Both the position numbers and the translations under genes were made by a program. From a virus: a stretch of 21,724 nt of DNA. Below are positions 2,579-21,724 of this stretch, piece after piece (the first letter of the stretch is position 1; each line of letters opens with the position of its first letter). The notes beneath the pieces were generated by a model that saw only the letters and a program-made list of their open reading frames with translations, had not been told where the DNA came from and did no database searches. The DNA lies in IMG/VR virus record IMGVR_UViG_3300027861_000219, positions 1-21,724 of that record. One strand, written 5' to 3'.

Positions 2579-2586
2579 AAACACAA

Positions 2587-2687: not shown

Positions 2688-2721
2688 AAAAAGGCCCTGC
2701 AACCCGATACAGGACCTTTTT
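2688..2721 (-). terminator. Intrinsic terminator ending the late (structural) transcript
   Basis: On the minus strand AAAAAGGTCCTG pairs with CAGGGCCTTTTT (12 pairs, one G-U, loop of 10) and continues as TTTTTTTGTTGT. This is a textbook intrinsic terminator 70 bases beyond the last late gene. The plus strand could also form it with one A-C mismatch and a T5 run, but the wobble pair favours leftward use. Confidence 0.82.
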
Positions 2722-2789
2722 AAGGAGATGAGGAAGAAAATGAAAAGTCATACTGTTTATATCAATCTATTACCTGGTTGTAAAGTAAA

Positions 2790-3238: not shown

Positions 3239-3271
3239 TGTGATTTCCTCCTTTATTTATAGTAACAAGTT

Positions 3272-5368: not shown

Positions 5369-5382
5369 TGTGTTTTTCTCCC

Positions 5383-6021: not shown

Positions 6022-6051
6022 TTTATTAAGCTCCTATATTATATAACGATA

Positions 6052-7224
6052 TCAAATCAAACCCTCTATTTCAAGGGTGCATATTGCATAGGCTGGATAA
6101 CTTATAACTGTACTAAAATCTCTAAAATATCCATATACAAGTAACGATTCATACTCTTCAGATCCGATCCATACAAGAGGCTGTGTTCTATAAAAAGCAA
6201 GTAACCTGTTGACCTCTGCAATGTCACTGTTTACTATTTTCACATCACAGTTCATCTTTTTAGAGTATGGTCTTTCCACTATGGTGTAGTTACCGAAATC
6301 GTCAATCTCTTTTGTGGAATAATCATGTATACCTATGGACGGAGAATAAAGGGTATCTCCAAATGTTGCTTGTAGCCCTAATACTATTTCACCCACCTTT
6401 GCGATAGCCTCATCACCTGAGTATGTGACAGTTACATCTATGGTTGCGTTGTAATAAGGAGGTATGTCTGTCAGAGCGAAATCAGTAATATATGTGTTTG
6501 TGCTGAAAAAATAGGAGTACCAGTCAAAAATGGATGTAACGCCTGACAAGGCTGTTGACACAAGCTCCTCAGTGTGGTCATAAACAACACCCTCAATGGG
6601 GTCCGTGGATACAACACGAACAGAGGTCACATTGACTAAGTTCATGAACGCCATGGCATTTATGATCTGTGCTGGTTCAAATTGGTATGTGAAAACCCCA
6701 TTATATTCTGACTGTGAGTTTATTATCTCATCAAAGGCTTTCCACCTGTTGTTATAACCAACCTCCAGCCAGCTAGGGACCGTCTCAAGTACATCAAGAG
6801 GTGGGTAATTCTGTGTGTTGCTATCAACAAGTGATTCATATATTTTATGCACATTGTCTGTTGATTCTGTGATAGTTGGGTGTGCAAGGCCCTGGTCTGC
6901 TAGCTTCGCTGGCGTGCCAGTAACCCCTATTATCTCACCAAGAGTATAATTACCTGACCGCTCCCTGACATAATATGTAAGGGTCGTGATCTTTTCCACC
7001 ACAACTGATGTTTCAGAGGATGTCTGACCTGTTATTATATCGCCTGGGTCCCAGTCAGTAGCAGGAGCAACATCCAGGGTCAATATCTCAAGGCCCTCTG
7101 CAACCATGATATAATCACCTTCAGAATAGGTGTCATTCATGGCGAACTCATCATAGTCATCCTCTGCAAGGCTAGAGCCTGTCAAAACTGTATCAGTAAT
7201 ATCTATGGGGCGTATTATAATCAT
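6052..7224 (-). CDS. Tail-tip/virion protein following the tape measure
   Basis: 390 residues, start overlapping the tape measure stop as ATGA. The opening MIIIRPIDITDTVLTGSSLA followed by EDDYDEFAMNDTYSEGDYIM and the later HKIYESLVDSN, NRWKAFDEIINSQ, DIPPYYNATIDV, GIHDYSTKEIDDFGNYTIVE and WIGSEEYESLLVYGYF belong to a protein family repeatedly found directly after the tape measure in siphophages. Its position suggests a distal-tail or baseplate hub role, which is inference. Residues about 44-119 appear to be an inserted small domain (GDIITGQTSSETSVVVEKIT, RSGNYTLGEIIG), a module seen separately in other phage virion proteins, placed between GDYIMV and the conserved HKIYESL. Confidence 0.75.
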   Translation of the reverse strand: MIIIRPIDITDTVLTGSSLAEDDYDEFAMNDTYSEGDYIMVAEGLEILTLDVAPATDWDPGDIITGQTSSETSVVVEKITTLTYYVRERSGNYTLGEIIGVTGTPAKLADQGLAHPTITESTDNVHKIYESLVDSNTQNYPPLDVLETVPSWLEVGYNNRWKAFDEIINSQSEYNGVFTYQFEPAQIINAMAFMNLVNVTSVRVVSTDPIEGVVYDHTEELVSTALSGVTSIFDWYSYFFSTNTYITDFALTDIPPYYNATIDVTVTYSGDEAIAKVGEIVLGLQATFGDTLYSPSIGIHDYSTKEIDDFGNYTIVERPYSKKMNCDVKIVNSDIAEVNRLLAFYRTQPLVWIGSEEYESLLVYGYFRDFSTVISYPAYAICTLEIEGLI

Positions 7225-10200: not shown

Positions 10201-11018
10201 AGGGTAATCAGCTCTTGATAATAAGGCAGTATGGATTGACCCAACAAAGTAGAGATGTCAGCCAATAGAGCTTGCTGTTGCTTCTCCTGGTTGGCTGCAC
10301 TTCCCATGGTCCTTTCCATGTCTCCAAGAGCTGCCGTTGAATTTTCAACCATTATTGCATAAGCTGCCTGGGCCTTCATTCCTGCGGTAAGTTGCTCTTC
10401 GGTATCGGCAAAACCCATAGTCAAGGCTTTTTGCTGGACGGTCGTGGCATTCAATATGACACCATACTTTTTCATGGACTCATACTCACCAGTCAAAGCA
10501 CTCTGTATATTAAGCATTACCTGTTCAGTGGGCAGGTTATTAAATGATCCAAGATCTGCTGCAAGCTTTACAATTTCAGAAGATAATTTTCCAGCTGATA
10601 CGGAGGACATGCCCATAGGGACCAATAAATCCTGCACTGAGGAAAGATATTTTTTAGCCTCAATGGTTGACATGGCATAGGATCCAACAAGAGCCTTAGC
10701 CCACATTTCAGCCTCTTTCCTCTGCCCTGCAAAAACAACATCAAACTTGCCCTGAACCTCTTGTAGCTCAGAGGCAAGACTAATAGCTATTCTTGTCTGT
10801 TTCTGGATTTGATATATTGCAAGGGCTGTGGCTGCTGCTGCTGCATATTTAGCATATGTGTTGAGCTGTTTACCAAGCTTGTCAAAACTACTTCTGAGGG
10901 AGTCTGTGGCCTTCTCTGTCTTCTTACTTTTATCGGTAAGGTCATCAAGATTCTTGCCAGCAGTTACAACACCGTTGCTGTCTACTTTGATATATAGTGA
11001 GGCTAAATCCTGAGTCAT
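7221..11018 (-). CDS. Tail tape measure protein
   Basis: 1265 residues, the longest gene in the window. The N-terminus (LYIKVDSNGVVTAGKNLDDL) and residues about 110-200 (KKYLSSVQDLLVPMGMS, SALTGEYESMKKYGVILN) are typical of phage tape measure proteins of the minor tail protein type. There are hydrophobic segments near 320 and 540-590, a Gly/Ser-rich linker near 590-615, and a long helical C-terminal half with an internal duplication (residues 956-1008 and 1023-1075). The protein sets tail length and fills the tail tube before DNA ejection. By the usual rule of about 0.15 nm per residue the tail would be near 190 nm. The ATG overlaps the chaperone extension's TGA (ATGA), so translation is coupled; GGAG is 11 bases upstream. 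Confidence 0.95.
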   Translation of the reverse strand: MTQDLASLYIKVDSNGVVTAGKNLDDLTDKSKKTEKATDSLRSSFDKLGKQLNTYAKYAAAAATALAIYQIQKQTRIAISLASELQEVQGKFDVVFAGQRKEAEMWAKALVGSYAMSTIEAKKYLSSVQDLLVPMGMSSVSAGKLSSEIVKLAADLGSFNNLPTEQVMLNIQSALTGEYESMKKYGVILNATTVQQKALTMGFADTEEQLTAGMKAQAAYAIMVENSTAALGDMERTMGSAANQEKQQQALLADISTLLGQSILPYYQELITLTNNWLLANKSVIEQNIPHYIEKVGDAIVFATNVMRFFHNAWLGIKLVGVAAIQGIATALKGLFELFRLIQKPLDLMFSGLEKLGAIDNNPFEMLSDSLETFRLSSGDVTKQIIDDIESTNRTYDSLIDKINKMKEALIAAPSGVGQDSGTLPVLQDAGPSLFISQEDAQSEADDLLKMKIDLYDGMSAYENEYREAQIEWIYRVRDAQIEAGLDEAAARIKATKEIQKIDQEAFESKTAQVNESLGQMGSAFQTIGNMYDKSSGSYDKMQKAAQVMMIAQQGVAVANAVAAIANQGMGDPYTAFSRIAAMTSAMVGLLASAGMSFGGGSSSSGGYTKPSGTALGGGNSESTGNAYELLQDTYDMQYRELSGLNRSMLELNDNISGLVSNVFQMGIGAGESYLGEAGINIIKSFGLTLSETGVAGLKSGGGVDSGLYKNILAYDFAKKSTRTEYEAIAESTEALLTSIYQGISTNLIDLTSQFGTDIETTLAYTFESATLDLQGKTPDQVDELLQSYFSGLADTAVESLFGSIISGYQEVGEGLYETAIRLVTDKAIIVDMLDKTGQAFTGTIPEIIEFSETLISMAGDLDTLRDSFEVFYSEFIPESEQFVNLQNDLTGALTDLNTILPDTRDGYMDLVQGLDLTTQAGQQAYVVLLGLSESAADYYSQLEDMESDALGLREDRLKLEIALLEAQGESELALAMARQSELDSMDESLQAIQAQIWAQQDLNDTMETLEALQSEQDSLLKDRFTLQMQLLEAQGESESALALSRQSELDVMDESLQALQKQIWAQQDLNDAMETYTTITEALSSAISDISGNATVSTQAGFNTLFTQAMGGDTEALTALPAAAKTFLSSAYSMSQSELDYRRLESQVLNKLAQAADFSSSQIAVLDASVPGHATGLNQVPYDGYLMKAHKDEAVLTAPEADQWRKSKSERVTSLTEFRQMKQELRGLREVMESGNYQVAKNTLKISKILGRFDDDGMPAERLV
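7794..7952 (-). repeat. Tape measure internal repeat, copy 2
   Basis: Residues 1023-1075 of the tape measure (begins DRFTLQMQLLEAQG, ends IWAQQDLNDAME). By hand alignment 41 of 53 residues match copy 1. The two copies are offset by 201 bases (67 residues). Confidence 0.85.
7995..8153 (-). repeat. Tape measure internal repeat, copy 1
   Basis: Residues 956-1008 of the tape measure (begins DRLKLEIALLEAQG, ends IWAQQDLNDTME). LEAQGxxExALAxxRQxELD-type repeats are known in tape measure proteins and are predicted helical. They lengthen the coiled portion of the protein and, with it, the tail. Confidence 0.85.
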
Positions 11019-11413
11019 TTTTTAAGGCTCTCCGATATAAAAAGTCTATCAATTCTTTTCAGGGTCTTAACTTCCCATGCTTCCGGGCCCTGCTTTGTAA
11101 GCTCCGACCATGCTTTTATTTCTGTGTAAGTTAGGGGTAAAGGTCCGACCTCAGTATAATCCCTGCCCCCTGACAAATCGCAGAACCATTCCCAAATATA
11201 TTCAATGCTTCTGTCATATTCAACTGGTTCAAGCTTTTCCCTTGCTTCCTTTGATCTGTCTTGGACCATCATCAGGTGATCCCTTAAAGATCCACCGTCT
11301 TTCTGTCTCTTGTTTAGCTCAAATTCGTGTTGTGCAAACCCGATAAGGCCAAATCCTGCGAGGAGATTACCCTCATCATCCTCACAGGCTGGTTCACCTA
11401 TCAGGCCTTGATA
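11015..11413 (-). CDS. Tail assembly chaperone, C-terminal extension made by -1 frameshift
   Basis: This frame is open from the slippery site at 11413-11419 to the TGA at 11017..11015 and encodes 132 residues (YQGLIGEPACEDDEGN at its start, LFISESLKK at its end). The first ATG in frame is only at 11272 and has no good ribosome binding site, so independent initiation is unlikely. Fusion to residues 1-144 of the upstream gene gives a 276-residue protein, the counterpart of lambda gpGT. In that system the long form carries a T domain that binds tail tube protein while the G part coats the tape measure. The gene lies between chaperone and tape measure and its stop overlaps the tape measure start, exactly the expected arrangement. 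Confidence 0.85.
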   Translation of the reverse strand, partial: YQGLIGEPACEDDEGNLLAGFGLIGFAQHEFELNKRQKDGGSLRDHLMMVQDRSKEAREKLEPVEYDRSIEYIWEWFCDLSGGRDYTEVGPLPLTYTEIKAWSELTKQGPEAWEVKTLKRIDRLFISESLKK

Positions 11414-11844
11414 AAATTTGCCCTGTCACCTATTGCGATGTCAACCTGCTCTTTGACCCATGGCCTTTCTGTATATAGTTTTTTTGCCGCACCTACAGAA
11501 AAATTAAGCTCTTCGCCATTAAATAGGATAGTGTCTTTTTCTTCGTCTCCATCAATGGTTTTCCATCCTATTGTACATGCTGCAAGCAATTCAAGACCGT
11601 TAGCGTCAAGCTCTTCCTGGGAAGGTGTGGCCTTGTTGGGCCTGAATCCATTCTTGGTCATGCGGTCTATACGCTTCTTGTTCTGCTGCCTGGATATCTT
11701 TTGGAATTCGTCAGAGTCCTTCCCTAGAACTGTTATAAATATTCCTGTATCCTCTTCTGTGGATGGATGATATAGTTCAACATCAAACCCCTTGTTAGCC
11801 GCTTTTACCGTGTCAATATCACCTAAATCAAATCGCTTGCTCAT
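11401..11844 (-). CDS. Tail assembly chaperone, short form (gpG-like)
   Basis: 147 residues beginning MSKRFDLGDIDTVKAANKGF, with KGFDVELYHPSTEEDTGIFI and then a helical lysine/arginine-rich stretch (EFQKISRQQNKKRIDRMTKN) and an acidic ELLAACTIGWKTIDGDEE region. Phage proteins with this layout, lying between tail tube and tape measure genes, are tail assembly chaperones; the family diverges quickly in sequence, so position weighs heavily. GGGAGGT lies 9 bases before the ATG. Three codons before the stop the message contains A AAT TTT in the correct phase for -1 slippage, and the stop TGA is followed at once by TAG. Most ribosomes should make this 147-residue form and a minority the 276-residue form. 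Confidence 0.85.
   Translation of the reverse strand: MSKRFDLGDIDTVKAANKGFDVELYHPSTEEDTGIFITVLGKDSDEFQKISRQQNKKRIDRMTKNGFRPNKATPSQEELDANGLELLAACTIGWKTIDGDEEKDTILFNGEELNFSVGAAKKLYTERPWVKEQVDIAIGDRANFIKA
11413..11419 (-). promoter_or_regulatory. Programmed -1 ribosomal frameshift site A AAT TTT
   Basis: In the zero frame the codons read GCA AAT TTT ATC AAG GCC TGA. The heptamer A AAT TTT fits the X XXY YYZ rule: after -1 slippage the tRNAs re-pair on AAA and TTT and reading continues TAT CAA GGC CTG. A weak stem (AGGC...GCCT with AGGT...ACC inside) can be drawn a few bases downstream; a stimulator is not clear. Confidence 0.85.
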
Positions 11845-11879
11845 GTGTGTGTTACCTCCCGTTAAATGTTATTAATTTA

Positions 11880-11901
11880 AGAGGGGCATCGCTACCCCTC
11901 T
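11880..11901 (-). terminator. Hairpin after the tail tube gene (weak terminator or mRNA-stabilising)
   Basis: AGAGGGG and CCCCTCT pair perfectly (7 bp, loop of 8), starting 6 bases after the tail tube stop. The minus-strand sequence that follows is TAAATTAATAAC, AT-rich but not a true T-run, so read-through into the chaperone and tape measure genes is expected. It could reduce downstream expression and protect the abundant tail tube message. Confidence 0.55.
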
Positions 11902-11906
11902 GTGGA

Positions 11907-13151
11907 TTAGGTCAAAGTACTGTCTTGAATGCTCAAGGTTGTTGCAAGTGTGTCTGTGGCGGTTGCTCCTGTGTCTGCTCCTGCATTAGTATCAAACAGG
12001 GCAGTAAAAGGCATGGTCTGAATGATTCCCTTTTCGCCATCGTCCTTGGATGCACCCCCAACTTTAACCCTTGGCATTGAAAATGCGATAAATTCAGCAT
12101 CATCATCATTGTTGGTGGTAAAGGCGCAAGCAATAGAAACCTCTGTCTCATCCTTAAAGTAATCCCTGAAGGTTGCATCCTCAAAATATACAGACATATT
12201 GCCTGAAACCATCACCTTGCCCTCGAAAAGATCAGGCTTTACATCAGATCCCACAACAGGCTCATTGGTCAAGTTAGCTGCAATGTCAAAATCCATGGAT
12301 GTAATAAGAGCAATCTGGGTACCCTCTACCGTTATAACCCCATTCACTGCTGCTACGATTCCGGTTGTGGTTGCGTCAAGTACGGCAGAAAAGTAAGGAG
12401 ATGCGCCGGTCTCAAGAAAGTTGTGATTAAGGCCCATGAGCCCTACATCTATGGTTGCCATTCCTGTGGCTGGTAGGCTTACCGCCATGGAGTTCACCTT
12501 GACATCATAAAATACCTCTGACAGGTCAACATCCTCAAAGTAATGCTCAAGGGTAAACCAATCCTCTGTGTGGCCTGTGGTTGGCGTCCATGTCTTCATG
12601 CCCTGGACAGAGGTGGTAATGGCCTGGCCTTCGCCCTCTGTGGTTAGGGTTGTTCCATTCAAAACAAGCCAATTCAATACGGTGTCGGTAACGGCTGTAA
12701 GCATAAGGTTGATATCATTGTTCCCTGTGGCGGTAAACCCAGAATGTCTTATAATATCACCTTTCTTGAATCCATCTTCAAGCCATGATCCAAGAGCATC
12801 ACTCCTGGTGGTTGTCTTGGCCGTGGCATCAATAGCAACATTTGAGTTTGCAGCATCCGAAACACCAGCCACAAAATCTTTTCTGAGAATTGCTGCCATA
12901 AGCAACTCATATGTTTCAGGGGACAGCTCACCATTAAGCGTTCCCTCAATAGACTGCACGCCGTGCCTGAAGTCTCCTACCTGTCTGTCTGGCCTGATCT
13001 CGTTTGACTGGTAAGTCTCTTTTACAAGGTCAATGCTACTCGTGACCCTTCTCAGGTACTTAGCCGTTGCGAGTGCTGCCTCTGCGACCGTTCCCTTTGT
13101 GGCCTGGGCTGCTAAAATTATCTTTTTTTCTATCCCTGAAGCTATTGACAT
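11907..13151 (-). CDS. Major tail tube protein
   Basis: 414 residues. The region LRRVTSSIDLVKETYQSNEI plus RPDRQVGDFRHGVQSIEGTL (residues about 33-72) is the hallmark of the phage tail tube family in which the tube subunit is 300-400 residues long (Phage_tube_2 type). The later part continues with beta-rich segments including NSMAVSLPATGMATIDVGLM and GVITVEGTQIALITSMDFDI. Hexamers would stack into the tube around the tape measure protein. AAAGGAG lies 6-7 bases before the ATG. A compact hairpin directly after the stop probably marks the 3' end of a heavily translated message segment. The neighbouring chaperone and tape measure genes support the call. Confidence 0.9.
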   Translation of the reverse strand: MSIASGIEKKIILAAQATKGTVAEAALATAKYLRRVTSSIDLVKETYQSNEIRPDRQVGDFRHGVQSIEGTLNGELSPETYELLMAAILRKDFVAGVSDAANSNVAIDATAKTTTRSDALGSWLEDGFKKGDIIRHSGFTATGNNDINLMLTAVTDTVLNWLVLNGTTLTTEGEGQAITTSVQGMKTWTPTTGHTEDWFTLEHYFEDVDLSEVFYDVKVNSMAVSLPATGMATIDVGLMGLNHNFLETGASPYFSAVLDATTTGIVAAVNGVITVEGTQIALITSMDFDIAANLTNEPVVGSDVKPDLFEGKVMVSGNMSVYFEDATFRDYFKDETEVSIACAFTTNNDDDAEFIAFSMPRVKVGGASKDDGEKGIIQTMPFTALFDTNAGADTGATATDTLATTLSIQDSTLT

Positions 13152-13174
13152 TGTGATTCTCCTTTGTGTTATAG

Positions 13175-13720
13175 TTAATTAAAAAAATTAAAAAATCCTA
13201 AGTATGCGTTATTTGTGTCTTCCACCACTTCTTTTATACTCATTTCGGATACTGTAATACTTTCACCAGCCCCTATGCTAGCCAGATGGTTTGTGCCCAA
13301 GAAAGTAGCATCGGCTATAAAAGTTTGCGTGTATGTTCCGGATGTTGTTATTTCTATAGAAAATTGCACATTCGCACCATTAGCCTGGCAGACTCTCCAG
13401 AGTATACCTCCCGTAACAGATTCAACAGTTATAGTCGCGGTATATTCTGTTCCCAGTGTTAAAGTTGGGAGGCTGACAGACCCGTAAAGACTTGCAACGC
13501 CTGCGGTTGTCGTTATCGCTTGATATCCTTCCACTGTTTTAGAGCCAATAGCCGTTATTGTTGCAAACATCCGGTATCCATCTGCAACAACACCAGTTGC
13601 AGACCCTACAGGAGTGCCACCCGTACCAGTCAAATTAGGGTTAGGTTGTAGTTCAGGGCCTAATGCTGCAAAGGCAACAGAGGCACATAATATCAATATA
13701 AATATGAGTATCCTTTTCAT
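13175..13720 (-). CDS. Secreted protein with carbohydrate-binding-like beta-sandwich domain
   Basis: 181 residues. The N-terminus MKRILIFILILCASVAFA followed by ALGPE is a textbook Sec signal peptide with an A-F-A cleavage motif (cut after about residue 18). The mature part (GPELQPNPNLTGTGG, then YTATITVESVTGGILWRVC and ESITVSEMSIKEVVE) resembles the jelly-roll carbohydrate-binding-like modules common in phage appendages, where a final strand of the form SIKEV is typical. There is no alternative Met to avoid the signal, and AAGG lies 7 bases before the ATG. The gene is packed 9 bases after another signal-peptide gene and just before the tail tube gene. A surface or periplasmic role is inferred; the partner is unknown. 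Confidence 0.65.
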   Translation of the reverse strand: MKRILIFILILCASVAFAALGPELQPNPNLTGTGGTPVGSATGVVADGYRMFATITAIGSKTVEGYQAITTTAGVASLYGSVSLPTLTLGTEYTATITVESVTGGILWRVCQANGANVQFSIEITTSGTYTQTFIADATFLGTNHLASIGAGESITVSEMSIKEVVEDTNNAYLGFFNFFN

Positions 13721-13729
13721 GACTATACC

Positions 13730-14242
13730 TTACTTGAAAACAAGTTTTATTGAGCCCGTTGCTGAATTTGTCGCTGTAGCTGCCTGGGTAATGGTCAACA
13801 CTATATCATCAGTGACAGGCCTTGGATATGGACCACTGCTGTCAATTCCAGGGTATGCCTGGGCCTTTGCGGTATTGTCCACTTTGTCAACACCGTTACC
13901 GTCAAGCAGGTCAATAGCATCCTGATAAACATAAATGTCGCTGTCCTCAGTAGGAGTGACCCCTGAAAGGCAATCAATGGATACTTCCCAGAGGTGCCAA
14001 CCTTCAAAAGATCCATGTGTTACCCATGTGGTGTTATTGTTTAGGGTCAAGTCTGGTATTGATCCGTCTGTATCATCTGCTACAAAATTGATCGTTACAG
14101 CTCTGACTACAGAACCTGTCCTTGAATTATGGTAGATCTTATCTCCATCCTCTGCAACTGAACTTGAGCTGCCAGCACCAAAAGCAAGAGTGTAGATCGA
14201 AACCAAAACAAAGCATAAAATTAAACTGAATAAATTTTTCAT
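13730..14242 (-). CDS. Signal-peptide protein related to a common phage virion protein
   Basis: 170 residues. MKNLFSLILCFVLVSIYTLA followed by FGAGSSSS is a Sec signal peptide, probably cut after FG. The remainder (VVRAVTINFVADDTDGSIPD, EDSDIYVYQDAIDLLDGNGV, KVDNTAKAQAYPG, GPYPRPVTDDIVLTITQAA) matches a small beta-rich protein often found in phages near the tail tube gene, where I know it without a signal peptide. AAGGGG lies 7 bases upstream of the ATG and no later Met could bypass the signal, so the export signal is translated. It follows the tail terminator gene closely. Function unknown; a virion decoration role would conflict with export unless the hydrophobic N-terminus is used differently. 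Confidence 0.65.
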   Translation of the reverse strand: MKNLFSLILCFVLVSIYTLAFGAGSSSSVAEDGDKIYHNSRTGSVVRAVTINFVADDTDGSIPDLTLNNNTTWVTHGSFEGWHLWEVSIDCLSGVTPTEDSDIYVYQDAIDLLDGNGVDKVDNTAKAQAYPGIDSSGPYPRPVTDDIVLTITQAATATNSATGSIKLVFK

Positions 14243-14261
14243 GATATAGCCCCTTATATTT

Positions 14262-14663
14262 TTAAATTACATCCGCAAACCATCTAATTTTAACAGGTAT
14301 CATCCACCTGTCACCATCTGCTCTACCCTGATTAATCTCTGGGGTCCTCTCTATCCTGGTAGTTACTCCACCTGATGTCATTGAGGTACCACGTTTGAAG
14401 GTTGTTTTTATCAGCTCGGCCCTTGCTTCTGCTGTGGCTGTACCCTCCTTAAGAGGGTAATATAAATTTATCTGAAAAACTCCTATGAGTCTATGAAAAC
14501 CATCTCCCATGGTTGGGTTTTCAACAGTATGCAGTACATAAGCCGCTTGATAAGGCGTACCATCTACAGGGTCATATTTGAAATTTTCCCATGCAACATC
14601 TACTGATCCAGGAATGCTTTCAAGTTTTGACTGTAGTGCTGCCCTGACTGATATTATGCTCAT
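14262..14663 (-). CDS. Tail terminator protein (DUF4128-like)
   Basis: 133 residues beginning MSIISVRAALQSKLESIPGS. The pattern IAWENFKYDP-like (VAWENFKYDPVDGTPYQAAY), then FQINLYYPLKEGTATAEARA and a final strand WMIPVKIRWFADVI matches the tail terminator family annotated as DUF4128. Such proteins form the hexameric ring that caps the completed tail and joins it to the neck. The ATG overlaps the TGA of the neck protein gene (ATGA), so the two are translationally coupled. Length and position (after the gp10-like protein, before the tail tube) fit. Confidence 0.85.
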   Translation of the reverse strand: MSIISVRAALQSKLESIPGSVDVAWENFKYDPVDGTPYQAAYVLHTVENPTMGDGFHRLIGVFQINLYYPLKEGTATAEARAELIKTTFKRGTSMTSGGVTTRIERTPEINQGRADGDRWMIPVKIRWFADVI

Positions 14664-15103
14664 TGTACTTTGTCCACCTCTTCAGATACTATGCCCTGGA
14701 ATTCTGCTACTGTGATTGCTACCATACCATTGGGAGCCTGCCTGCTGTAACCATCTTCAAGCCTTTCAATGTACGGTACTGAGTTTTGTATAAAATGCAC
14801 ATTGTCCCCTGGTTCAACTGGGATATTATTAACCATGTTGTTTATGGTCCTAGACCCTCCAGGAGAGGTATCAACACCGTCAAACTCTTGTATCACCCTT
14901 GTACCTTTTGAGTACATCCAATTAAAACGGGCATGTCCACCGACATATCCAGCAGGTGGTGGACTCTGCCAGTATTTTGCATCCCCTACAGGGGTCCTTG
15001 TGATTACTCTTTGACCTATATCAATGAGAGTCCTACGAATAACCACATTTGAGTTATTAACAGCCTTTTTTGCAAACTTGTTTATGTCATCCGCAAAACC
15101 CAT
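14660..15103 (-). CDS. Neck/tail completion protein (HK97 gp10-like)
   Basis: 147 residues from the ATG at 15103, which has AAAGG 6-7 bases upstream; a GTG two codons earlier (15109) is a less likely start. The protein opens with a helix (GFADDINKFAKKAVNNSNVV) followed by VITRTPVGDAKYWQSPPPAG, GHARFNWMYSKG, and VHFIQNSVPYIERLEDGYSR with QAPNGMVAITVAEFQ. The RTPVxTG...A..NW...N.lPYi..LE.G.S.QAP.GM pattern is characteristic of the HK97 gp10-like minor tail/neck family. It contributes to the head-tail junction. Its stop overlaps the start of the tail terminator. Confidence 0.85.
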   Translation of the reverse strand: MGFADDINKFAKKAVNNSNVVIRRTLIDIGQRVITRTPVGDAKYWQSPPPAGYVGGHARFNWMYSKGTRVIQEFDGVDTSPGGSRTINNMVNNIPVEPGDNVHFIQNSVPYIERLEDGYSRQAPNGMVAITVAEFQGIVSEEVDKVQ

Positions 15104-15133
15104 ATTCACCCTTTACAAATAAATGTATTTAAA

Positions 15134-15235
15134 TTAAGATAAACATACTTTCCAAGAGCACATGGGTGGCAAGCCCTTTGAGCACAAAAACTCTGCTCCA
15201 GATAAGCGGCCCATGTTGAGGAAATTACTTTCCAT
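15134..15235 (-). CDS. Possible 33-residue Cys-containing small protein
   Basis: In the 133-base gap between head-closure and neck genes, ATG at 15235 starts one base after the upstream TAA, with GAGG about 7 bases before it. The reading frame encodes MESNFLNMGRLSGAEFLCSK and then GLPPMCSWKVCLS before TAA. It has three Cys residues and no family I recognise. Tight coupling to the upstream stop and a plausible ribosome binding site favour a real gene; the short length and lack of any known relative count against it. Confidence 0.4.
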   Translation of the reverse strand: MESNFLNMGRLSGAEFLCSKGLPPMCSWKVCLS

Positions 15236-15236
15236 T

Positions 15237-15620
15237 TTATGCCCTCAAATTGATACTATATAAAACCACTGTACCGGCTGGGGAAATCCTATTGTAAGGC
15301 TCAACTATGGTGTATGTGGTACCTTCTGCGTCTGTGATTTTGTCACCCAACACAGGAGCGGTTAAGACATCCCCATCAGTATTAAGAGGAGACAAAAGTA
15401 AACGCTGATCTGTATTTTTTATCATGGTTCCGTCAATCAGCTTATTTTCCCACCCAACAATTGCACCTGTACCGTACTGTATTTCTGTGCTTTCCCCTGA
15501 TACTCCACCAGTTGCAGGGTTATAGGTGCCTGGCACTATATGTGTTATTGTTACAGCCTGCCCCTTTCCTATAAGGAGCCTATTTGATGTGGTTGCCATC
15601 CTGGTATAGAAATCAGTCAT
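15237..15620 (-). CDS. Head closure / head-tail joining protein
   Basis: 127 residues from the ATG at 15620, which overlaps the TAA of the connector gene (TAATG) and has GAGG 5 bases upstream. The frame extends 8 codons further but those would overlap the upstream gene. The protein has a short N-terminal helix (MTDFYTRMATTSNRLLIGKG) and then beta strands QAVTITHIVPGTYNPATGG, GAIVGWENKLIDGTMIKNTD, QRLLLSPL and GDKITDAEGTTYTIVEPYNR. This order (ADQRVLL-like strand, then iTD.eG..Y.I) is typical of small beta-barrel head closure proteins found between the connector and the gp10-like protein. Function is assigned from this pattern plus position. Confidence 0.75.
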   Translation of the reverse strand: MTDFYTRMATTSNRLLIGKGQAVTITHIVPGTYNPATGGVSGESTEIQYGTGAIVGWENKLIDGTMIKNTDQRLLLSPLNTDGDVLTAPVLGDKITDAEGTTYTIVEPYNRISPAGTVVLYSINLRA

Positions 15621-16126
15621 TAAGTCCTCACAAGACGCACACAAACACCGCTACTTGTTACACTAAGATAAGGTTTCAGCATTGCATCAACAGACCTGTA
15701 CCTTGTGTATTGAGGTGACGATTTGTCATACTCGACCTCAATCACATCAACCTTTTCCCTGACAACTCCCTGAGTAAGGTCTGGGGCCAGCTCTCCAGTG
15801 CTTGCTTTTAGTGCCAGCTCTGCGCATGCCCTCTGCACCTCAACAGGAATCTCATCAATATCAACTTGCCAACTGTCCCTTACCACTCCCTGTCTAGGCC
15901 AATCAAGGGCCTGATCCTCTGTGTACCTTACGCCTTCCCAACGCTCTCTGTACACCTGGATCATATACTCAGTTGCATTTCGCAAGTACGCCTCCCTGAG
16001 AGCGTCTGTGGCTATTGCAGCCCATGTGGTATTACCCCTTACAGAAAAGTATGTGGTTGTGTCTGCTACAGATATATAGCTTTCTGCATCAGATTTGCCG
16101 GTCCCGTCTTCCGTTACAAGTGCCAT
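15620..16126 (-). CDS. Head-tail connector, DnaT-like domain protein
   Basis: 168 residues. The opening VTEDGTGKSDAESYISVADT, the helix ALREAYLRNATEYMIQVYRE, RWEGVRYTEDQALDWPRQGV (residues 62-81) and the helix EIPVEVQRACAELALKASTG are the signature of the phage family annotated as DnaT-like ssDNA-binding domain, now generally seen as the connector that binds the portal. The LDWPR motif at 74-78 is diagnostic. AGG lies about 9 bases before the ATG, a weak site. The gene is followed by the head closure gene with a TAATG overlap. Confidence 0.85.
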   Translation of the reverse strand: MALVTEDGTGKSDAESYISVADTTTYFSVRGNTTWAAIATDALREAYLRNATEYMIQVYRERWEGVRYTEDQALDWPRQGVVRDSWQVDIDEIPVEVQRACAELALKASTGELAPDLTQGVVREKVDVIEVEYDKSSPQYTRYRSVDAMLKPYLSVTSSGVCVRLVRT

Positions 16127-16135
16127 AATAAATAC

Positions 16136-16411
16136 CTAGAAAGTTATTTTCTTTATAATTGCTTGAGATACAACGGCCAAGAATCCACCTAATATACCAG
16201 AGATGCCCGAAACAGTTGTGTCAAATCTCTTTCGCTTTTCAATCTTCTTAAATCTATTTTCGCAAACCTCATGTGACGATATGCATCTTTTTTTTATATC
16301 AAGCTGATGTACCCTTATATCTGAAAGCATGTCATAGGTTAATGCTCTTCCAGTCGGTGCGTCTGAGTTAATATAAGTCTCTCTGGATATCCCTGGAAAA
16401 TCTTTTCCCAT
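16136..16411 (-). CDS. Small phage membrane protein with CxxxHxxC motif
   Basis: 91 residues. A hydrophilic N-terminal half contains C43-x3-H47-x2-C50 followed by a basic helix (RFKKIEKRKRFD), and the C-terminal 25 residues (TTVSGISGILGGFLAVVSQA) form one membrane segment. Small proteins with a Cys/His cluster, RF..IE.RK..DT and a Gly-rich membrane helix recur among structural genes of tailed phages; their function is unknown. A holin-like or membrane-tethering role is possible but not shown. CGGAG lies 7 bases before the ATG. Confidence 0.65.
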   Translation of the reverse strand: MGKDFPGISRETYINSDAPTGRALTYDMLSDIRVHQLDIKKRCISSHEVCENRFKKIEKRKRFDTTVSGISGILGGFLAVVSQAIIKKITF

Positions 16412-16432
16412 TTAAAAACTCCGCTTACAAGA

Positions 16433-17326
16433 TTAATCGTCTATTAAAAGTAGGTCAAAAGCTCCTACAACTCCAACTGTGCCAGTAACCTCAGTGCATT
16501 CTATTTTTATATCCGTTTTTTCGGGAATCATCCCAATAGGGATACCGTATTCATATTGCCACCATGAGCTACCATGGGTAATACACTCAATCTGTCCTTT
16601 GGTTTGCCAGGCCTCATCTCCACCGTTTGTTAATTTTAATTTCCATTTGAATTCCGCTGCGTATACAGTAGCACCACCACCCTTGCTAATACCCACATAC
16701 CCCTTTACAAACATGCCTTGCTTTCCTGCCGGTATAGTGTATATAGCTTGCTGTGTCTGTCCGTCTCCTGCTGCTATGTAGGCCCCAACGTCACCACCGC
16801 CAGATACTTGAACTGATATATTACCAACATTGTCCATGACTGATCCAGCGGTTAATACAATAGCTCTGTGCATCCTGATATATGTGTTTGATAAGGCAAC
16901 GGCGTTTGTGCCATTCATATCAACTGTTTCTGAGATCTCGTTGAAATCACCATCTTTACCATATATAATGACCGTCCAAGCTCCTGTACCTGTAGTCAAT
17001 GTGTCTTCTGATGAAGTGCTTACAATCTCCATAGATTGTGCTGTGGTGGGATAAAAGTCATAAGTTCCACCTCCGCACCAAACATCCTCAGGATCTGAGG
17101 CAGTTGTTATTGATTCATTATGACCAAATTTATTAACTGATGAATATCCAGGAATAAGCCCCTGTGCCACTTGATATAAAAATGGTGGTTCGTGCATTCT
17201 AGTAAAAATGGAAGACAGCCACCCACGTATGCCCCAACCACCTGAAGGCATAGAGAAAGGGCTGGAGATATCAGCCCCATCTTGTGCCATCTGTCTGAAT
17301 GTTTCGTTACCGCCTGGTGCTACCAT
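16433..17326 (-). CDS. Conserved virion protein (capsid-associated or fibre-like)
   Basis: 297 residues. The regions GYSSVNKFGHNESITTASDP and EDVWCGGGTYDFYPTTAQSM, then DTLTTGTGAWTVIIYGKDGD, ISETVDMNGTNAVALSNTYI and GDGQTQQAIYTIPAGKQGMF, form a beta-rich pattern common to structural proteins of many environmental phages (KFG.N..I....ED.W.GGG.Y.F, TGTGA.TV.I.G.D, GQT..A.Y.IPAG). These are virion proteins, but where they sit on the particle is not settled. AAGGA lies 6 bases before the ATG. It follows the signal-peptide protein by 12 bases and precedes the neck genes, so a capsid or neck fibre is a fair guess. Confidence 0.72.
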   Translation of the reverse strand: MVAPGGNETFRQMAQDGADISSPFSMPSGGWGIRGWLSSIFTRMHEPPFLYQVAQGLIPGYSSVNKFGHNESITTASDPEDVWCGGGTYDFYPTTAQSMEIVSTSSEDTLTTGTGAWTVIIYGKDGDFNEISETVDMNGTNAVALSNTYIRMHRAIVLTAGSVMDNVGNISVQVSGGGDVGAYIAAGDGQTQQAIYTIPAGKQGMFVKGYVGISKGGGATVYAAEFKWKLKLTNGGDEAWQTKGQIECITHGSSWWQYEYGIPIGMIPEKTDIKIECTEVTGTVGVVGAFDLLLIDD

Positions 17327-17338
17327 CTAAAATCCTTG

Positions 17339-18058
17339 TCAATATGCTGTTCCCAGTGTAACCCTGCGCCAGTTAGTGCCTGATATCGTGTTTGCAGTAA
17401 TGCAATGATACATATAAGAGCCATCTGCACACGTTTCGTTTGCAATGCCCACTGTTCCATTGATACCGCCAACCAAAGCTACATCTGCATTATTCCAAGA
17501 TATCTGTGCGCTGTCATCTACTGTGACAATCGAGTTTCCCGCTGTACCTTTGGTACTGGCTGTGATTGTTATATCATCAGTGTCCGTTACTTCTGCCCCC
17601 ACAAGAGGATGTGCGACTGTCCCTGTCCCGTAAGTTGTCCCTGCACCGGTTGTTCCGCTTATGGCTGATACAAGATTATCGGCTGTGGCTCCAGTATTGG
17701 CACCGAGAAGAACCTCATAAGGGACTGTGCCACCTGAAGTAAGGGAAGTTTTAAGAGTGTAAACAACGGCCCCTATTGTCACGCCTGACCCATCCGCAGC
17801 AAGTGTGCCGGTCGATATCATCTTTCCGGATGCAGCAACGGCATTCACTGGGGTCTTTTCAGGCAGGGCCAAAAGTTCAGGGCTCATCTGTGTTGCAAGG
17901 ATATCGTCAACGGTCTGTATGGAGCCTCCTATATAGAGATCCCCTGTAATGACCTGTGTGCCTCTTTTTACTGCGGTCTGACCATAAGATATGGAGGCCA
18001 TAAACCCAAACATCAGAAAATAAAAAAGTATAATTATTGCTTTGAGGTTGTATTTCAT
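17339..18058 (-). CDS. Signal-peptide protein with phage virion-type repeat domain
   Basis: 239 residues. MKYNLKAIIILFYFLMFGFM plus ASISYG is a Sec signal peptide with a possible cut after SYG. The middle domain (TVTIG-like VTIGAVVYTLKTSLTSGGTV, YEVLLGANTGATADNLVSAI, GAGTTYGTGTVAHPLVGAEV, STKGTAGNSIVTVDDSAQIS) is a module widespread in phage virion proteins. The C-terminus (CADGSYMYHCITANTISGTN then WRRVTLGTAY) is another recurrent phage ending. Homologues I recall occur near the capsid gene without a secretory signal. AAGGAG lies 8 bases before this ATG, inside the end of the preceding gene, so the signal is translated. Confidence 0.68.
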   Translation of the reverse strand: MKYNLKAIIILFYFLMFGFMASISYGQTAVKRGTQVITGDLYIGGSIQTVDDILATQMSPELLALPEKTPVNAVAASGKMISTGTLAADGSGVTIGAVVYTLKTSLTSGGTVPYEVLLGANTGATADNLVSAISGTTGAGTTYGTGTVAHPLVGAEVTDTDDITITASTKGTAGNSIVTVDDSAQISWNNADVALVGGINGTVGIANETCADGSYMYHCITANTISGTNWRRVTLGTAY

Positions 18059-18061
18059 GGC

Positions 18062-18271
18062 TTAAAGCTCCTTATCTAGCACCTTTGCGCTAACTTCCTT
18101 TGCTTTCTTAGAGGCTTTCTTTAATTCAACAGGCTCCTTTGACCACCTCTTAGATGGATGACCAAGAAACTCTGAGGCGTCAATAGAAAAGCACTTCAAA
18201 GGCTTATTCTTGTTTTTTGTATCGTATATGGTGATTGTTTCTTTTATGTCTGACATTTTCTTAGCTGACAT
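18062..18271 (-). CDS. Small hypothetical protein after the cement gene
   Basis: 69 residues beginning MSAKKMSDIKETITIYDTKN, with a beta-prone first half (KETITIYDTKNKNKPLKCFS) and a lysine-rich C-terminus (KKASKKAKEVSAKVLDKEL). GGAGG lies 4-5 bases before the ATG. Small genes in this slot between capsid decoration and connector genes are common in phages but no function is known. The end of this gene carries the ribosome binding site of the next. Confidence 0.65.
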   Translation of the reverse strand: MSAKKMSDIKETITIYDTKNKNKPLKCFSIDASEFLGHPSKRWSKEPVELKKASKKAKEVSAKVLDKEL

Positions 18272-18298
18272 GCTACCTCCGCTAATTTAAGTGGTTGG

Positions 18299-18330
18299 AT
18301 AATGGTGCAGAGATTGAACTGCACCATTAT
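18299..18330. terminator. Perfect 12-bp hairpin after the cement gene
   Basis: ATAATGGTGCAG and CTGCACCATTAT pair over 12 bases with an 8-base loop. On the minus (gene) strand it is followed by CCAACCAC, not T residues, so it is not a classic terminator there; on the plus strand it is followed by TTTGTATAG. It probably acts as an mRNA-end stabiliser or processing site for the capsid-cement message, or stops antisense transcription. Confidence 0.6.
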
Positions 18331-18348
18331 TTTGTATAGTCTAACTTA

Positions 18349-18819
18349 CTATTTCTTGCGGTGGATTGCAAGCCAGATTGTGGTAGTGATAGTCTCGGCT
18401 GTACCGTTAAGGATGTTCAGGTATGCCCTGACATATCTCCAAACCTCGCCATTCTGAACATTACGGAAAGGAACGACAAAGCGATCACCAGCAGCACCAA
18501 CATCCTGATCACCTACCAATGTGTCAGCGTGACCCAACTCGACCATTGCAAGGTCAATAAAATCAGTTCCAAAAGTTCCAGCCTGGGAACCCTGAAGCTT
18601 GATTTCGTAGTTTTCATCTGTGCCGATTTCTATTGCATCGATATCAACTACCATGTATCCCTCTGCAACACCATCACCTAAATCTCTGACTGTGGCAACA
18701 TCAAGAACCTTTCCGGCCTGCGATGCAACAATTGGGGAGGAATCCCCAGCACTATCAAGGGAGTCCTCAAGAAGCAGATCATCATCATATACGAAATCTT
18801 CTTTTAAGTATGTGGTCAT
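18349..18819 (-). CDS. Capsid cement/decoration protein (Bbp16-like)
   Basis: 156 residues. The pattern SAGDSSPIVASQAGKVLDVA, VVDIDAIEIGTDENYEIKLQ, GSQAGTFGTDFIDLAMVELG and ERWRY-like NVQNGEVWRYVRAYLNILNG matches the phage family typified by Bordetella phage BPP-1 Bbp16, a beta-sandwich that cements capsomers. BPP-1 carries it directly after its major capsid gene, as here. AGGAG lies 9 bases before the ATG. The gene is bracketed by two hairpins (18859-18880 and 18299-18330). The family match is by pattern memory and not verified by alignment. Confidence 0.75.
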   Translation of the reverse strand: MTTYLKEDFVYDDDLLLEDSLDSAGDSSPIVASQAGKVLDVATVRDLGDGVAEGYMVVDIDAIEIGTDENYEIKLQGSQAGTFGTDFIDLAMVELGHADTLVGDQDVGAAGDRFVVPFRNVQNGEVWRYVRAYLNILNGTAETITTTIWLAIHRKK

Positions 18820-18858
18820 TTTAAATGTCTCCTGTTTTAAAATTTAAGTTTGAATATT

Positions 18859-18880
18859 TAGCCCCGACTTAACAGGGCTA
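18859..18880 (-). terminator. Hairpin between major capsid and cement genes
   Basis: On the minus strand TAGCCCTG pairs with CGGGGCTA (8 pairs, one G-U, loop of 6), 16 bases after the capsid stop. The sequence after it is AAATATTCAAAC, so termination would be weak. A 3'-stabilising or mild attenuating role is more likely. Confidence 0.5.
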
Positions 18881-18895
18881 TTGATTAATTATGGA

Positions 18896-19834
18896 CTAAG
18901 CCGTAACGGCTGTGGCTGTGCTTATATTCCAAAGTCTTGTTGCTGCCCTTGGATGATACAGAGCCATACCTACAAGCCACTCAACCAGAGTTCTCCAGAT
19001 TGTACCTGAATCGGTCTTTCCAAGGTCCTCAACTTCCATGACGCCGTTCTGAATTCCTTCAAGCTTTCCAGGCATGAAAGATACGACATAAAGACTTGTG
19101 GCATCGGAACCGGCATCCCCTGCGGTCTCTGTCAGTGGTATGATATCTGAATCAGTGTTGTCCTTTCCAGCGTCAAGAATAGGAAGTCCGGCATATTTCA
19201 CAACCTGACGACCCCAATCATCCTGGTCATATTCGACCTGACCACCTATGCTTGATGTTCTCTGGGCCTGAGTAAGTAGCCTTCTGAGCTTCTTATTCAT
19301 GATAAGGTGGGTTGGCTCCTCTGTCTGGTCAATAGCCTCATCCAGCTTTGCGAGGGTGAGGGCTCCAACAGAGTCAGTATCATTGGTTGTTACTGCTATC
19401 TTCTGATCATTGGCAAGTCTGCGCTGTAGTCCGTCAAACTCTCTTGGATCAGACTGAGAGTCTCCCTTGATTACTGATTTTGCAGTTTTCAGGGATAGGG
19501 CCTTGACTTTCATGGCCTCATGTTTTCCCCTTACACCCTCACCAAACATCTTGATAAGAGCCCTATCGACATCAAGAGTACCACCGGCAATTTTGAGAGG
19601 GTCATGCATTGGATTGATAACGCCTGCTGAAGCGGTGTATTCCTCATTGATACCACGAAATGCTACGCCTGGAAGTGTGGCTTCCTGGTCATAATCAACA
19701 CCGCTTCCCTGGATGTTTTCAAAGATCATAGCGTTGAGGATATCATTTGATTTTGCAAACAGCTCAATGATAGTACCCCTTTTTGTGTTGAGTCCTACAG
19801 TCTTGGCATATTCCATAAGTGTAATTGCTGCCAT
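18896..19834 (-). CDS. Major capsid protein, HK97 fold
   Basis: 312 residues. MAAITLMEYAKTVGLNTKRG and the N-terminal helix lead into FENIQGSGVDYDQEATLPGV and AFRGINEEYTASAGVINPMH, then LDVDRALIKMFGEGVRGKHE, REFDGLQRRLANDQ, HLIMNKKLRRLLTQAQ, GRQVVKYAGLPILDAGKDN and TIWRTLVEWLVGMALYHPRA. This order (LPGV.FRG.NE.Y; EFDGL..R; L.MN...RR.L; GR.V..Y.G.PI; R..IEW..G.A...P.A) is a well-defined family of HK97-fold capsid proteins. No maturation protease gene lies nearby. AAAGGAG is 9 bases before the ATG. A terminator hairpin sits 35 bases upstream, so most message must read through from the scaffold transcript or from far upstream. Confidence 0.95.
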   Translation of the reverse strand: MAAITLMEYAKTVGLNTKRGTIIELFAKSNDILNAMIFENIQGSGVDYDQEATLPGVAFRGINEEYTASAGVINPMHDPLKIAGGTLDVDRALIKMFGEGVRGKHEAMKVKALSLKTAKSVIKGDSQSDPREFDGLQRRLANDQKIAVTTNDTDSVGALTLAKLDEAIDQTEEPTHLIMNKKLRRLLTQAQRTSSIGGQVEYDQDDWGRQVVKYAGLPILDAGKDNTDSDIIPLTETAGDAGSDATSLYVVSFMPGKLEGIQNGVMEVEDLGKTDSGTIWRTLVEWLVGMALYHPRAATRLWNISTATAVTA

Positions 19835-19866
19835 AATAAATTTCTCCTTTAAATTGTTGTTTAAAT

Positions 19867-19911
19867 AAAAAAAGCCAAACTTAATGGTTTTGACCCATTA
19901 GGTCCGGCTTT
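19867..19911 (-). terminator. Intrinsic terminator between scaffold and capsid genes
   Basis: On the minus strand AAAGCC...ACC TAATGG pairs with CCATTA AGT...GGCTTT (6, 3 and 6 pairs separated by a 2x2 internal loop; loop GTCAAAA), followed by TTTTTTTATTTAA. Stem and seven-T tract form a good leftward intrinsic terminator, partial read-through being required for capsid expression. Confidence 0.8.
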
Positions 19912-19961
19912 ACCGTGTATCTTCAACCCCCATTAGGGAATGATCTAATTTTTATTGTTTC

Positions 19962-20597
19962 TTACTTACCTTCTCCCTGGCTGTTTATATGATCAAGCCT
20001 TGCCTCTGGTGTCAACTTGGCGAGATCTTCATTGTTTGGTGTACCACCCTTATTACCACCACCACCGCCTCCACTGTTTGCAGGAGCGTCAACAAAAGCC
20101 TTGCCATCATCCGATCCAGACCACTCTTTGACGAAATCTCCAAGGGTCTTATCCCCAACCTTTGCAACTCTGTTTTCGCCATCTGCCTCAAGCGTTACCT
20201 GACTTTTAAGCAGGGCCTTTGCCGCTTTAAGGTATTGAGGAGTTTTAACACCATTGTCCAGCAAAGCCTTTGACAGACCGTTATCAACAAGGAGGTCATG
20301 GACTACCTTGGATTCACCCTCATAGCTCTTAGTTGCCTTCTCTGCGTCTGCTGTGGCTTTCTTGGCTGTCTTTTCTGCTACCTTGAGTTTGTCCTGTGTT
20401 TTTTCAAGCTCTTTTTCAAGGTCTGCATAATCAGAGGGGTCAATCTCTTGGCCTTTTTTGGCCTTTTTCAGCTTGTCAAGTAGTTCTGAGTTTTTGCCAA
20501 GTATACGGTTCTTTTCATCGTTTGCGTCTTTTAACGCCGACTCTACAGCCTCCTTGATAGCTTTTTTGGTGTCTTCGCAATTTGGATCAAACGCCAT
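19962..20597 (-). CDS. Capsid scaffold protein
   Basis: 211 residues from the ATG at 20597, preceded by GGAGG at 7 bases; an earlier ATG 11 codons upstream has no ribosome binding site. The sequence begins MAFDPNCEDTKKAIKEAVES and runs as a long charged coiled coil (residues about 15-95, e.g. DLEKELEKTQDKLKVAEKTA), followed by DLLVDNGLSKALLDNGVKTP, which I associate with phage scaffold or minor structural GPO-like proteins. The C-terminus has the glycine run SGGGGGGNKGG and KLTPEARLDHINSQGEGK. Position directly before the major capsid gene, composition and length support a scaffold. The gene lies between a strong promoter and a terminator, so it could be made from a discrete message of about 810 bases. 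Confidence 0.85.
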   Translation of the reverse strand: MAFDPNCEDTKKAIKEAVESALKDANDEKNRILGKNSELLDKLKKAKKGQEIDPSDYADLEKELEKTQDKLKVAEKTAKKATADAEKATKSYEGESKVVHDLLVDNGLSKALLDNGVKTPQYLKAAKALLKSQVTLEADGENRVAKVGDKTLGDFVKEWSGSDDGKAFVDAPANSGGGGGGNKGGTPNNEDLAKLTPEARLDHINSQGEGK

Positions 20598-20679
20598 GTT
20601 GTTGCCTCCATTGGAGTGGTTAGTGGGCATTGCCCTGGAAAATCAGGTCATAAACCTAACATAATACGTGGATGCTAAA

Positions 20680-20707
20680 AGTATATAAGATTTTTTAAAC
20701 ATGTCAA
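20680..20707 (-). promoter_or_regulatory. Near-consensus sigma70 promoter before the scaffold gene
   Basis: On the minus strand TTGACA (20707..20702, six of six) and TATACT (20685..20680, five of six) are spaced by 16 bases. It starts 4 bases after the stop of the head morphogenesis gene, in an AT-rich stretch. Predicted initiation is near 20673, giving a leader of about 76 bases to the scaffold start. The leader contains two short hairpins (AGGT/ACCT and GGGC/GCCC). Confidence 0.75.
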
Positions 20708-20710
20708 GCG

Positions 20711-21724
20711 TTATTTAATCGAGTCTTGTAGCTCTTTTAAAGTCAACTCCCTTCCTGATCCATCAACCAGGTCTGAAAGTGTGATTTTTTTATCTCTCCA
20801 AAGTTGTGCACGGCCCTTTCCTAACTGTGCGTCCTGCTCCTTAACGGTCTTTCTCTTTAGGTAAGCGTCAAAGGTGGTGTCAGCTTTTATCTGCCCCTCA
20901 TCGCTGGCCCTGGTTGCTGGTGGTGGCTCCTTTATGTTGGGGTAGCCAAGCTCTTTGTACGACTTTAATTTAACTAAAATTACGCTCCTGCATCCTGGGT
21001 GGCGAGGACATCCTCCATCAAAGGGCAGTTCATTGGGCGGTATGGGCTTAAAATCAAGATCCCACTCTGCTCCCGAATAAGCAACACAGATTTTTGATGT
21101 GTGACTGTCCAGAGTAGAAAGCTGATAATACCCCTTTGCAATGTCTTCATTTTCTCTATACACGGCCATGCGTGCATCATTTGTCACCTGGGCAATGGTA
21201 TCATGCACCATGGTTGAGGCATTGCGCCTTAATGTTTTTTCAGGAAAACCTATTCCAGGTATCCCTTTCCTGGGAGATCCAAACACCCGGGTTATGATCT
21301 GCTGTTGTGTTTCGCCTGAAAGTATACCTAGCCGGACCTGACCTGCAAAGCTCCTCTTGAGTCCATCCGACTGCCTGGACCACCAATCATCCAGAGGTAC
21401 ACCCTCAAGGAGAGAATTAGAGGCCAGAGCCTTAAACACCTTTGTAGTTGGTAGGTTTGCACTAAGGTCAATGCCTCCCAGTATAGCAACCTCATTCTTA
21501 CCCTCATATATTGCAAGGGCTTCTTTATCCACCACGCCTGCCATGTCAGAATATGAGCTTTCAATTATCTTATTGGTCTGTTTGAGTAGCTTGTTTACCC
21601 TGGTTTTCTGAAAGGATGTCAGATCATTGTTGAGCTTGTTTTTTAACTCAATTCGTAGATCCTCAAGCATAGCAAACACCTTTTTGCGCTCACCTGCTGA
21701 AAGCCTCATAAGCTCTAGCTGGTG
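20711..21724 (-). CDS. Head morphogenesis protein (Mu gpF / SPP1 gp7-like), partial
   Basis: The frame stays open to the right edge (HQLEL before the first visible ATG at 21709), so the true start is probably outside the window; from that Met 332 residues are seen. Numbering from it, residues 105-195 show the helical region DDWWSRQSDGLKRSFAGQVR, GILSGETQQQIITRVFGS and RNASTMVHDTIAQVTNDARM. The C-terminal Mu F domain has TLDSHTSKIC (199-208) and CPRHPGCRS (234-242), the Cys/His pattern (DxxTxxxC ... HPxCR) that marks the family. These minor head proteins sit inside the capsid near the portal and help assembly or DNA ejection. The gene normally follows portal, which should lie just beyond the edge. 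Confidence 0.88.
   Translation of the reverse strand, partial: HQLELMRLSAGERKKVFAMLEDLRIELKNKLNNDLTSFQKTRVNKLLKQTNKIIESSYSDMAGVVDKEALAIYEGKNEVAILGGIDLSANLPTTKVFKALASNSLLEGVPLDDWWSRQSDGLKRSFAGQVRLGILSGETQQQIITRVFGSPRKGIPGIGFPEKTLRRNASTMVHDTIAQVTNDARMAVYRENEDIAKGYYQLSTLDSHTSKICVAYSGAEWDLDFKPIPPNELPFDGGCPRHPGCRSVILVKLKSYKELGYPNIKEPPPATRASDEGQIKADTTFDAYLKRKTVKEQDAQLGKGRAQLWRDKKITLSDLVDGSGRELTLKELQDSIK

Follow-up and report, generated by a model that had tools for sequence, protein, structure and literature searches.

Signal-bearing genes in a structural module

The window analysed here is the whole 21,724-base uncultured virus record IMGVR_UViG_3300027861_000219 of IMG/VR, of which 25 proteins were assessed. 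It carries on its minus strand a siphovirus-type structural module made up of a head morphogenesis protein, a scaffold, a major capsid protein and a capsid-adjacent protein (18349), and continuing with the adaptor Ad1, the head closure protein Hc1, a neck protein, a tail terminator, a tail protein, a chaperone, a tape measure protein (assigned by size and position) and tail-end genes. Within or just behind this module, and all on the same strand, lie five open reading frames (ORFs) whose products begin with export-type hydrophobic N-termini. These are listed below and named hereafter by their lower coordinate; arrows mark candidate cleavage sites.

17339–18058, minus strand: 239-residue fibre/decoration-type protein, signal at residues 1–26 (17981–18058), predicted cleavage SYG↓QTAVKRG
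13730–14242, minus strand: 170-residue decoration-like protein, signal at residues 1–22 (14177–14242), plausible cleavage AFG↓AGS
13175–13720, minus strand: 181-residue beta-rich protein, textbook signal at residues 1–18 (13667–13720), AFA↓ALG
3272–5368, minus strand: 698-residue spike-like protein with a putative beta-helix, signal or N-terminal anchor at residues 1 to ~20 (5309–5368)
2948–3238, minus strand: 96-residue predicted lipoprotein (GTG start, lipobox VSAC, Cys19), encoded immediately after the spike gene

A charged start, a strongly hydrophobic N-terminus and a ribosome binding site at that start coincide in 5 of the 25 window proteins. Each of the five starts positive and continues with an uncharged apolar stretch of 17–27 residues, and the best 19-residue Kyte-Doolittle means (2.19 in 17339, 2.37 in 13730, 2.63 in 13175, 2.40 in 3272 and 2.55 in 2948) all fall within the first ~23 residues; none of the other 20 proteins exceeds 1.73, a value reached in a C-terminal segment. 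The starts are preceded by AAGGAG, AAGGGG, AAGG, AAGGGAG and AAAGGAGG, and no internal start with a ribosome binding site that would bypass the signal was found in the five ORFs. The original prediction had named export-type starts on these proteins, with a ribosome binding site fitting each; coordinates, hydropathy and ribosome binding sites agree with it in all five ORFs, although the site is weak at 13720, and no other window protein comes close.

Signal prediction, which had been proposed as a check, was performed with an in-house scorer derived from 24 E. coli signal sequences; the outcome was divided. Under strict settings 13730 and 13175 were called signal peptides and 2948 a lipoprotein, the latter agreeing with its lipobox and with what had been claimed for it, whereas 17339 (SYG↓QT) and 3272 (CGA↓VW) were rejected on the cleavage matrix alone. 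As controls, shuffled whole proteins were called signal peptides at a rate of 0.15–1.2%, and spurious window ORFs in 0/51 cases. The positive n-region and apolar h-region of a Sec/signal peptidase I signal are present; small residues at −3/−1 are clear in 13175 (AFA↓A), acceptable in 17339 and 13730, weak in the window spike and better in the relatives of the spike. Because both 17339 and 3272 fail the strict scorer on their cleavage sites, relatives were used as evidence for these two proteins.

Signals gained and lost among relatives

The window capsid protein is 41–88% identical to its counterparts at 43 IMG/VR loci and at most 51% identical to those of cultured phages; ten IMG/VR contigs form the close group of the window, two of which (L002 and L011) share a source metagenome. 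Neither megablast nor tblastn matched the window (3272–21724), 17339, 13730, 13175 or 3272 to any cultured phage. A genome scan for the host returned one distant capsid relative (Rhizobium rosettiformans), and IMG/VR scans with alignments of the decoration protein and the spike N-domain yielded no contigs beyond those already found.

Comparison of homologues, as had been suggested, showed that orthologues of 17339 occur both with and without a signal. In the head slot, which is marked by the capsid-adjacent gene 18349, the signal is present in the window, L009, L011 and L003 (the last on a different body) and absent from L002, L010 and L006 (again the last on a different body). Behind its signal, 17339 consists of a GDLYIGG N-module, a sheath-type middle domain and the conserved C-terminus ANETCADxxYxYHC...NWRR. 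The cleaved forms would start QTAVKRGTQV, ETSVKRGTQV and DATVTKGNRV, as against SSKVIDGDQV and ENKPIVGDQV in the signal-less forms after removal of Met, and the stretch ahead of the conserved VITGDLYIGG motif is equally long in cleaved and signal-less forms, L003 being two residues shorter. This match in length at the mature boundary is suggestive, the −3/−1 sites having been chosen by eye among the allowed ones. The signals of the family share 25–50% identity among one another. At the DNA level, the window and L011 agree at 35% over the 60 nt before the motif, which is near chance, and at 76% over the next 90 nt. Moreover, the N-module of the window is closer to that of L011 (83% identity, against 57% in L002) and its body closer to that of L002 (78%, against 54% in L011). 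The N-module and the body therefore have different histories, N-modules with and without a signal having replaced one another on a common body.

The C-terminal body of 17339 was also found in other phages behind different N-modules, never with a signal, and a scan for the GDLYIGG DNA motif returned the contigs already found together with chance matches or unrelated fibres. The middle domain matches the tail-sheath family PHROG 165 weakly (E = 0.002), and the fold search matched gp13 and gp17 of RcTitan as well as proteins labelled major tail or major capsid. PHROG 165 alone would be insufficient; the stronger evidence comes from gp13 of this Rhodobacter siphophage. It lies in the same slot, flanked by the capsid-adjacent gene and the head-tail adaptor, and has the same domain (hhalign 94%, Foldseek 1.7e-6), but it lacks the signal, the GDLYIGG module and the ANETCAD C-terminus. 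In L052 (2822–5068) and L053 (2831–5065), proteins of ~745 residues that adjoin the capsid gene contain multiple repeats of the sheath-type domain and end in the conserved C-terminus.

Homologues of the spike 3272 occur, in three copies, in two related phages. By searching the whole records of relatives, the tail-end genes of L002 and L011 were recovered, in which signal-bearing spikes lie behind homologues of 6052 and 5383 and share the N-domain of the window spike. The spike of L002 starts MKLLKIIIIGLIVFMSASLSWG↓KTFEQSG, the two copies in L011 start MKFRLIVMMVFVWCLWFGSVSWG↓ATEKSG and MKLKLALMTTVFFALICNHAYS↓QNFEPSG, and that of the window starts MKLRNVLLLIIVCVGLFCGAVWR..EKSG. All four copies in the three phages begin hydrophobic, and their signals are 5–20% identical next to an adjoining domain of 44–64% identity; the cleavage sites are acceptable in L011 and L002 and weak in the window. 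The L002 spike matches Pfam Beta_helix (PF13229, 4e-12); the window spike has no Pfam hit, and NxIxxNxI repeats are visible in its sequence. Residues 149–589 of the L002 spike body match a protein of Vibrio phage LP.2 whose N-terminus is signal-less and of the virion-docking type of tailspikes. The likeness to such beta-helix tailspikes (LP.2, P22 type) is in the body, a putative beta-helix in the window protein; here the body follows a signal and a small lineage-specific domain, which may or may not dock.

For 13730, a signal-less relative was found in L006 (13099–13515, 37% over 73 residues) and a signal-bearing one behind the spike of L002 (E 2e-6, partly due to the signal itself); the L006 and L002 members match each other at 8e-11. 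The L006 protein is also 45% identical to a protein of Methanosarcina virus MetMV (MK170447.1, 42771–43196), a link between bacterial and archaeal viruses. The claim that two of the signal-bearing proteins carry modules known from non-exported virion proteins is supported by the middle domain of 17339, with its sheath and RcTitan matches. For 13175, no relative was found beyond its signal. The mature part of 13175 may be a carbohydrate-binding-type sandwich, and a PDB fold search with it was uninformative. Matches to Moricin, CARDB, DsdX and PDB 6wjb were discarded as chance.

The trait extends through the group. With a relaxed rule, signal-like genes number 12/153 in the close group together with the window and 3/497 elsewhere, the 497 comparison genes coming from other IMG/VR capsid relatives and from eight cultured-phage stretches (0/152 in the latter). 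The difference (Fisher p = 5e-6) is indicative only, as the rule was fixed with the window already in view, gene calling was by simple ORFs and the relatives are not independent of one another. Wherever a relative offers enough sequence, a set of signals is found in it, though the genes that carry them differ at times: in L003, as many as four consecutive genes of the head slot are signal-like, and L002 encodes in addition a signal-bearing, fibronectin type III (FnIII)-looking protein of 127 residues, with only a weak Pfam hit to DUF7359, while the 220-residue spike copy of L011 falls slightly below the relaxed hydropathy cut. The genes of the relatives indicate that signal-bearing virion-like proteins are a trait of the lineage and not of the window alone, which the original prediction had missed. 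Trees built from six structural genes could not time the gains of signals, being too small and showing too much mosaicism.

Probable export and its possible purpose

Directly visible in the sequences are the signals, whose physical character is conserved while their residues vary, the exchange of forms with and without a signal, and the occurrence of signals across the lineage. Predicted export is well supported by sequence, and we regard it as likely that the signal-bearing proteins leave the cytoplasm and, presumably, are cleaved, since their signals behave like real ones: the physical character of a Sec signal is kept while the sequence drifts, and the signal is placed at the mature boundary.

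What such proteins would do is a more tentative matter. Tailed phages are taught as assembling everything in the cytoplasm, and those phage proteins that are exported mostly serve exclusion or lysis and are small. Envelope proteins from late regions are known (Cor and Llp, and Lom and Bor of lambda), the latter two not being known to be related to virion proteins. The window resembles lambda in encoding predicted envelope proteins in a late region, but here signal-less homologues occupy structural slots. We lean, short of conviction, towards a late structural operon that would produce a few proteins with Sec signal peptides whose bodies go back to virion-surface modules (beta-helix spike, fibre/decoration-like), to act in the envelope and most likely on receptors. 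The signals would carry them across the inner membrane and be trimmed by signal peptidase I, or by signal peptidase II in the lipoprotein. In the envelope or outside, the mature proteins might bind or cut surface polymers and receptors, and so keep superinfecting phages and the own progeny off the infected cell and its debris. The receptor-directed function is the most speculative part of this proposal. Surface interference, by masking or stripping receptors, was judged the most economical role. The proteins have a cell-surface-type build, the genes are late and the lipoprotein is placed like exclusion lipoproteins. In T5, Llp is encoded directly downstream of the gene of the receptor-binding protein pb5, and several phages have their cor locus after the gene for the tail fibre (PMC9586334, PMC13164509); the position of 2948–3238 behind a putative adhesin gene appears to match this placement. 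The likeness to the Cor/Llp exclusion lipoproteins (T1, N15, HK022, T5) lies in a predicted phage lipoprotein encoded behind a putative adhesin gene, while here several larger non-lipoprotein, virion-module proteins also carry export signals. As for the envelope-targeted set of late proteins that had been proposed, the signals and some virion-type modules are supported by sequence, whereas 13175, with no relative, does not allow each member to be called a virion gene.

Several points weigh against surface interference. In the cleavage matrix, 17339 and 3272 receive low scores. Searches of Pfam, PHROG and NCBIfam gave no match of the lipoprotein to Cor/Llp or a known exclusion protein, and 2948 was therefore not filed as a member of that family. 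The sample is small, with the head slot visible in seven phages and the tail end in three. Finally, the spike could be the main adhesin and would then be expected on the particle.

The main rival, which we hold unlikely but worth serious thought, is that the proteins are true virion parts, exported first and attached later: they would be processed, perhaps oxidized, in the periplasm and dock onto finished particles at lysis. The predicted mature ends resemble those of signal-less orthologues, leaving the virion-fitting part intact; the genes occupy head and tail slots, where RcTitan gp13 is a signal-less protein of the same slot; and phage spikes can be the last to join particles, as in P22. 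Nevertheless, signal-less relatives in the group apparently need no export, and cysteine makes up ~1% of the mature spikes, which is not striking and speaks against a need for disulfides as the reason for export. A wider formulation, in which the lineage would route spikes and capsid or tail surface proteins through Sec as a rule, swapping signals on and off intact virion modules, with the exported copies either blocking the surface or dressing particles at lysis, is possible, and we hold it with less confidence than surface interference.

The original prediction had also allowed that the hydrophobic N-termini are kept inside the particle. A helix retained without export, docking or anchoring to membranes the particle or its assembly intermediates, would suit the long apolar segment and weak cleavage site of the window spike, and the AlphaFold models, weak overall (predicted local distance difference test, pLDDT, 52 and 44), place a low-confidence lone helix at residues 5–23 of 17339. 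Yet docking helices should conserve their sequence, and the spike signals diverge freely next to conserved residues; signal-less orthologues of 17339 have no such segment, its predicted cleavage falls near their N-terminus, and acceptable cleavage sites are present in the spikes of L011 and L002. Since its sequence is not conserved, we find such a helix improbable.

Similarly improbable is a role as lysis accessories, where exported proteins would weaken or bridge the envelope and the lipoprotein would serve as an outer-membrane, spanin-like subunit. L006 carries in this head slot, between the adaptor and head-closure genes (14155–15170), putative endolysin-like and holin-like genes; the head slot of L003 has small signal-bearing genes, one of them coiled-coil-like; and a small membrane-type gene of 52 residues follows the lipoprotein. 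However, the bodies are spike-, decoration- and FnIII-like rather than spanin-like, and a family search gave no match to spanin families. Least probable are morons, genes for surface proteins that move between phages and hosts, with mosaic gain and loss of signals and no coherent role, which would fit the high mosaicism and the signals on different genes in different relatives but neither the tendency of well-covered relatives to have several signals nor the signal character kept despite drift.

Signal peptides on spike- and decoration-type modules that come and go between close relatives at the mature boundary would imply either that virion modules have a second role as envelope effectors or that the cytoplasm is not where all particles are completed, and the paired signal-bearing and signal-less orthologues make the question directly testable. 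Phage-fibre-like proteins behind a signal peptide have been described in the MAT fibres of Bdellovibrio, which are proteins of a bacterial predator and not phage-encoded (PMC10769870). In the open-access literature we found no report of spike, fibre or decoration modules that carry signal peptides and have orthologues lacking them; most subscription papers lay outside the search, and this is weak evidence of novelty.

Neighbouring genes and signals in other contigs

Four signal-less or small genes of the window accompany those described above.

18349–18819, minus strand: capsid-adjacent, decoration-like protein without signal, conserved in every close relative
16136–16411, minus strand: 91-residue protein whose C-terminal segment is hydrophobic; L002 has a homologue in the same slot, and in L011 the homologue is flanked by the two spike genes
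5383–6021, minus strand: signal-less tail protein, presumably fibre-like by a motif; its gene immediately precedes that of the spike, in an order that L002 and L011 share
2790–2948, minus strand: 52-residue small membrane-type protein, as read from sequence, overlapping the stop codon of the lipoprotein, homologue in L011

A protein of 90–91 residues with the hydrophobic C-terminal segment of 16136–16411 is found in L097 (3734–4006, minus strand), and it may represent a mobile membrane gene, possibly related to lysis.

Signal-like starts were also seen on the contigs L057 and L065, which suggests that the trait occurs in further lineages. L057, an unrelated IMG/VR contig, encodes an 833-residue spike-like protein with a strong signal (4001–6499, AWA↓K) and, close to it, a signal-bearing protein of 173 residues whose end resembles an outer-membrane barrel (7509–8030). 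On the reverse strand of L065, a fibre-like protein (ORF 2577–5963, MKRLTLALLLLTSLSFGQ) and a protein of 2762 residues (ORF 5840–14236) both have signal-like starts.

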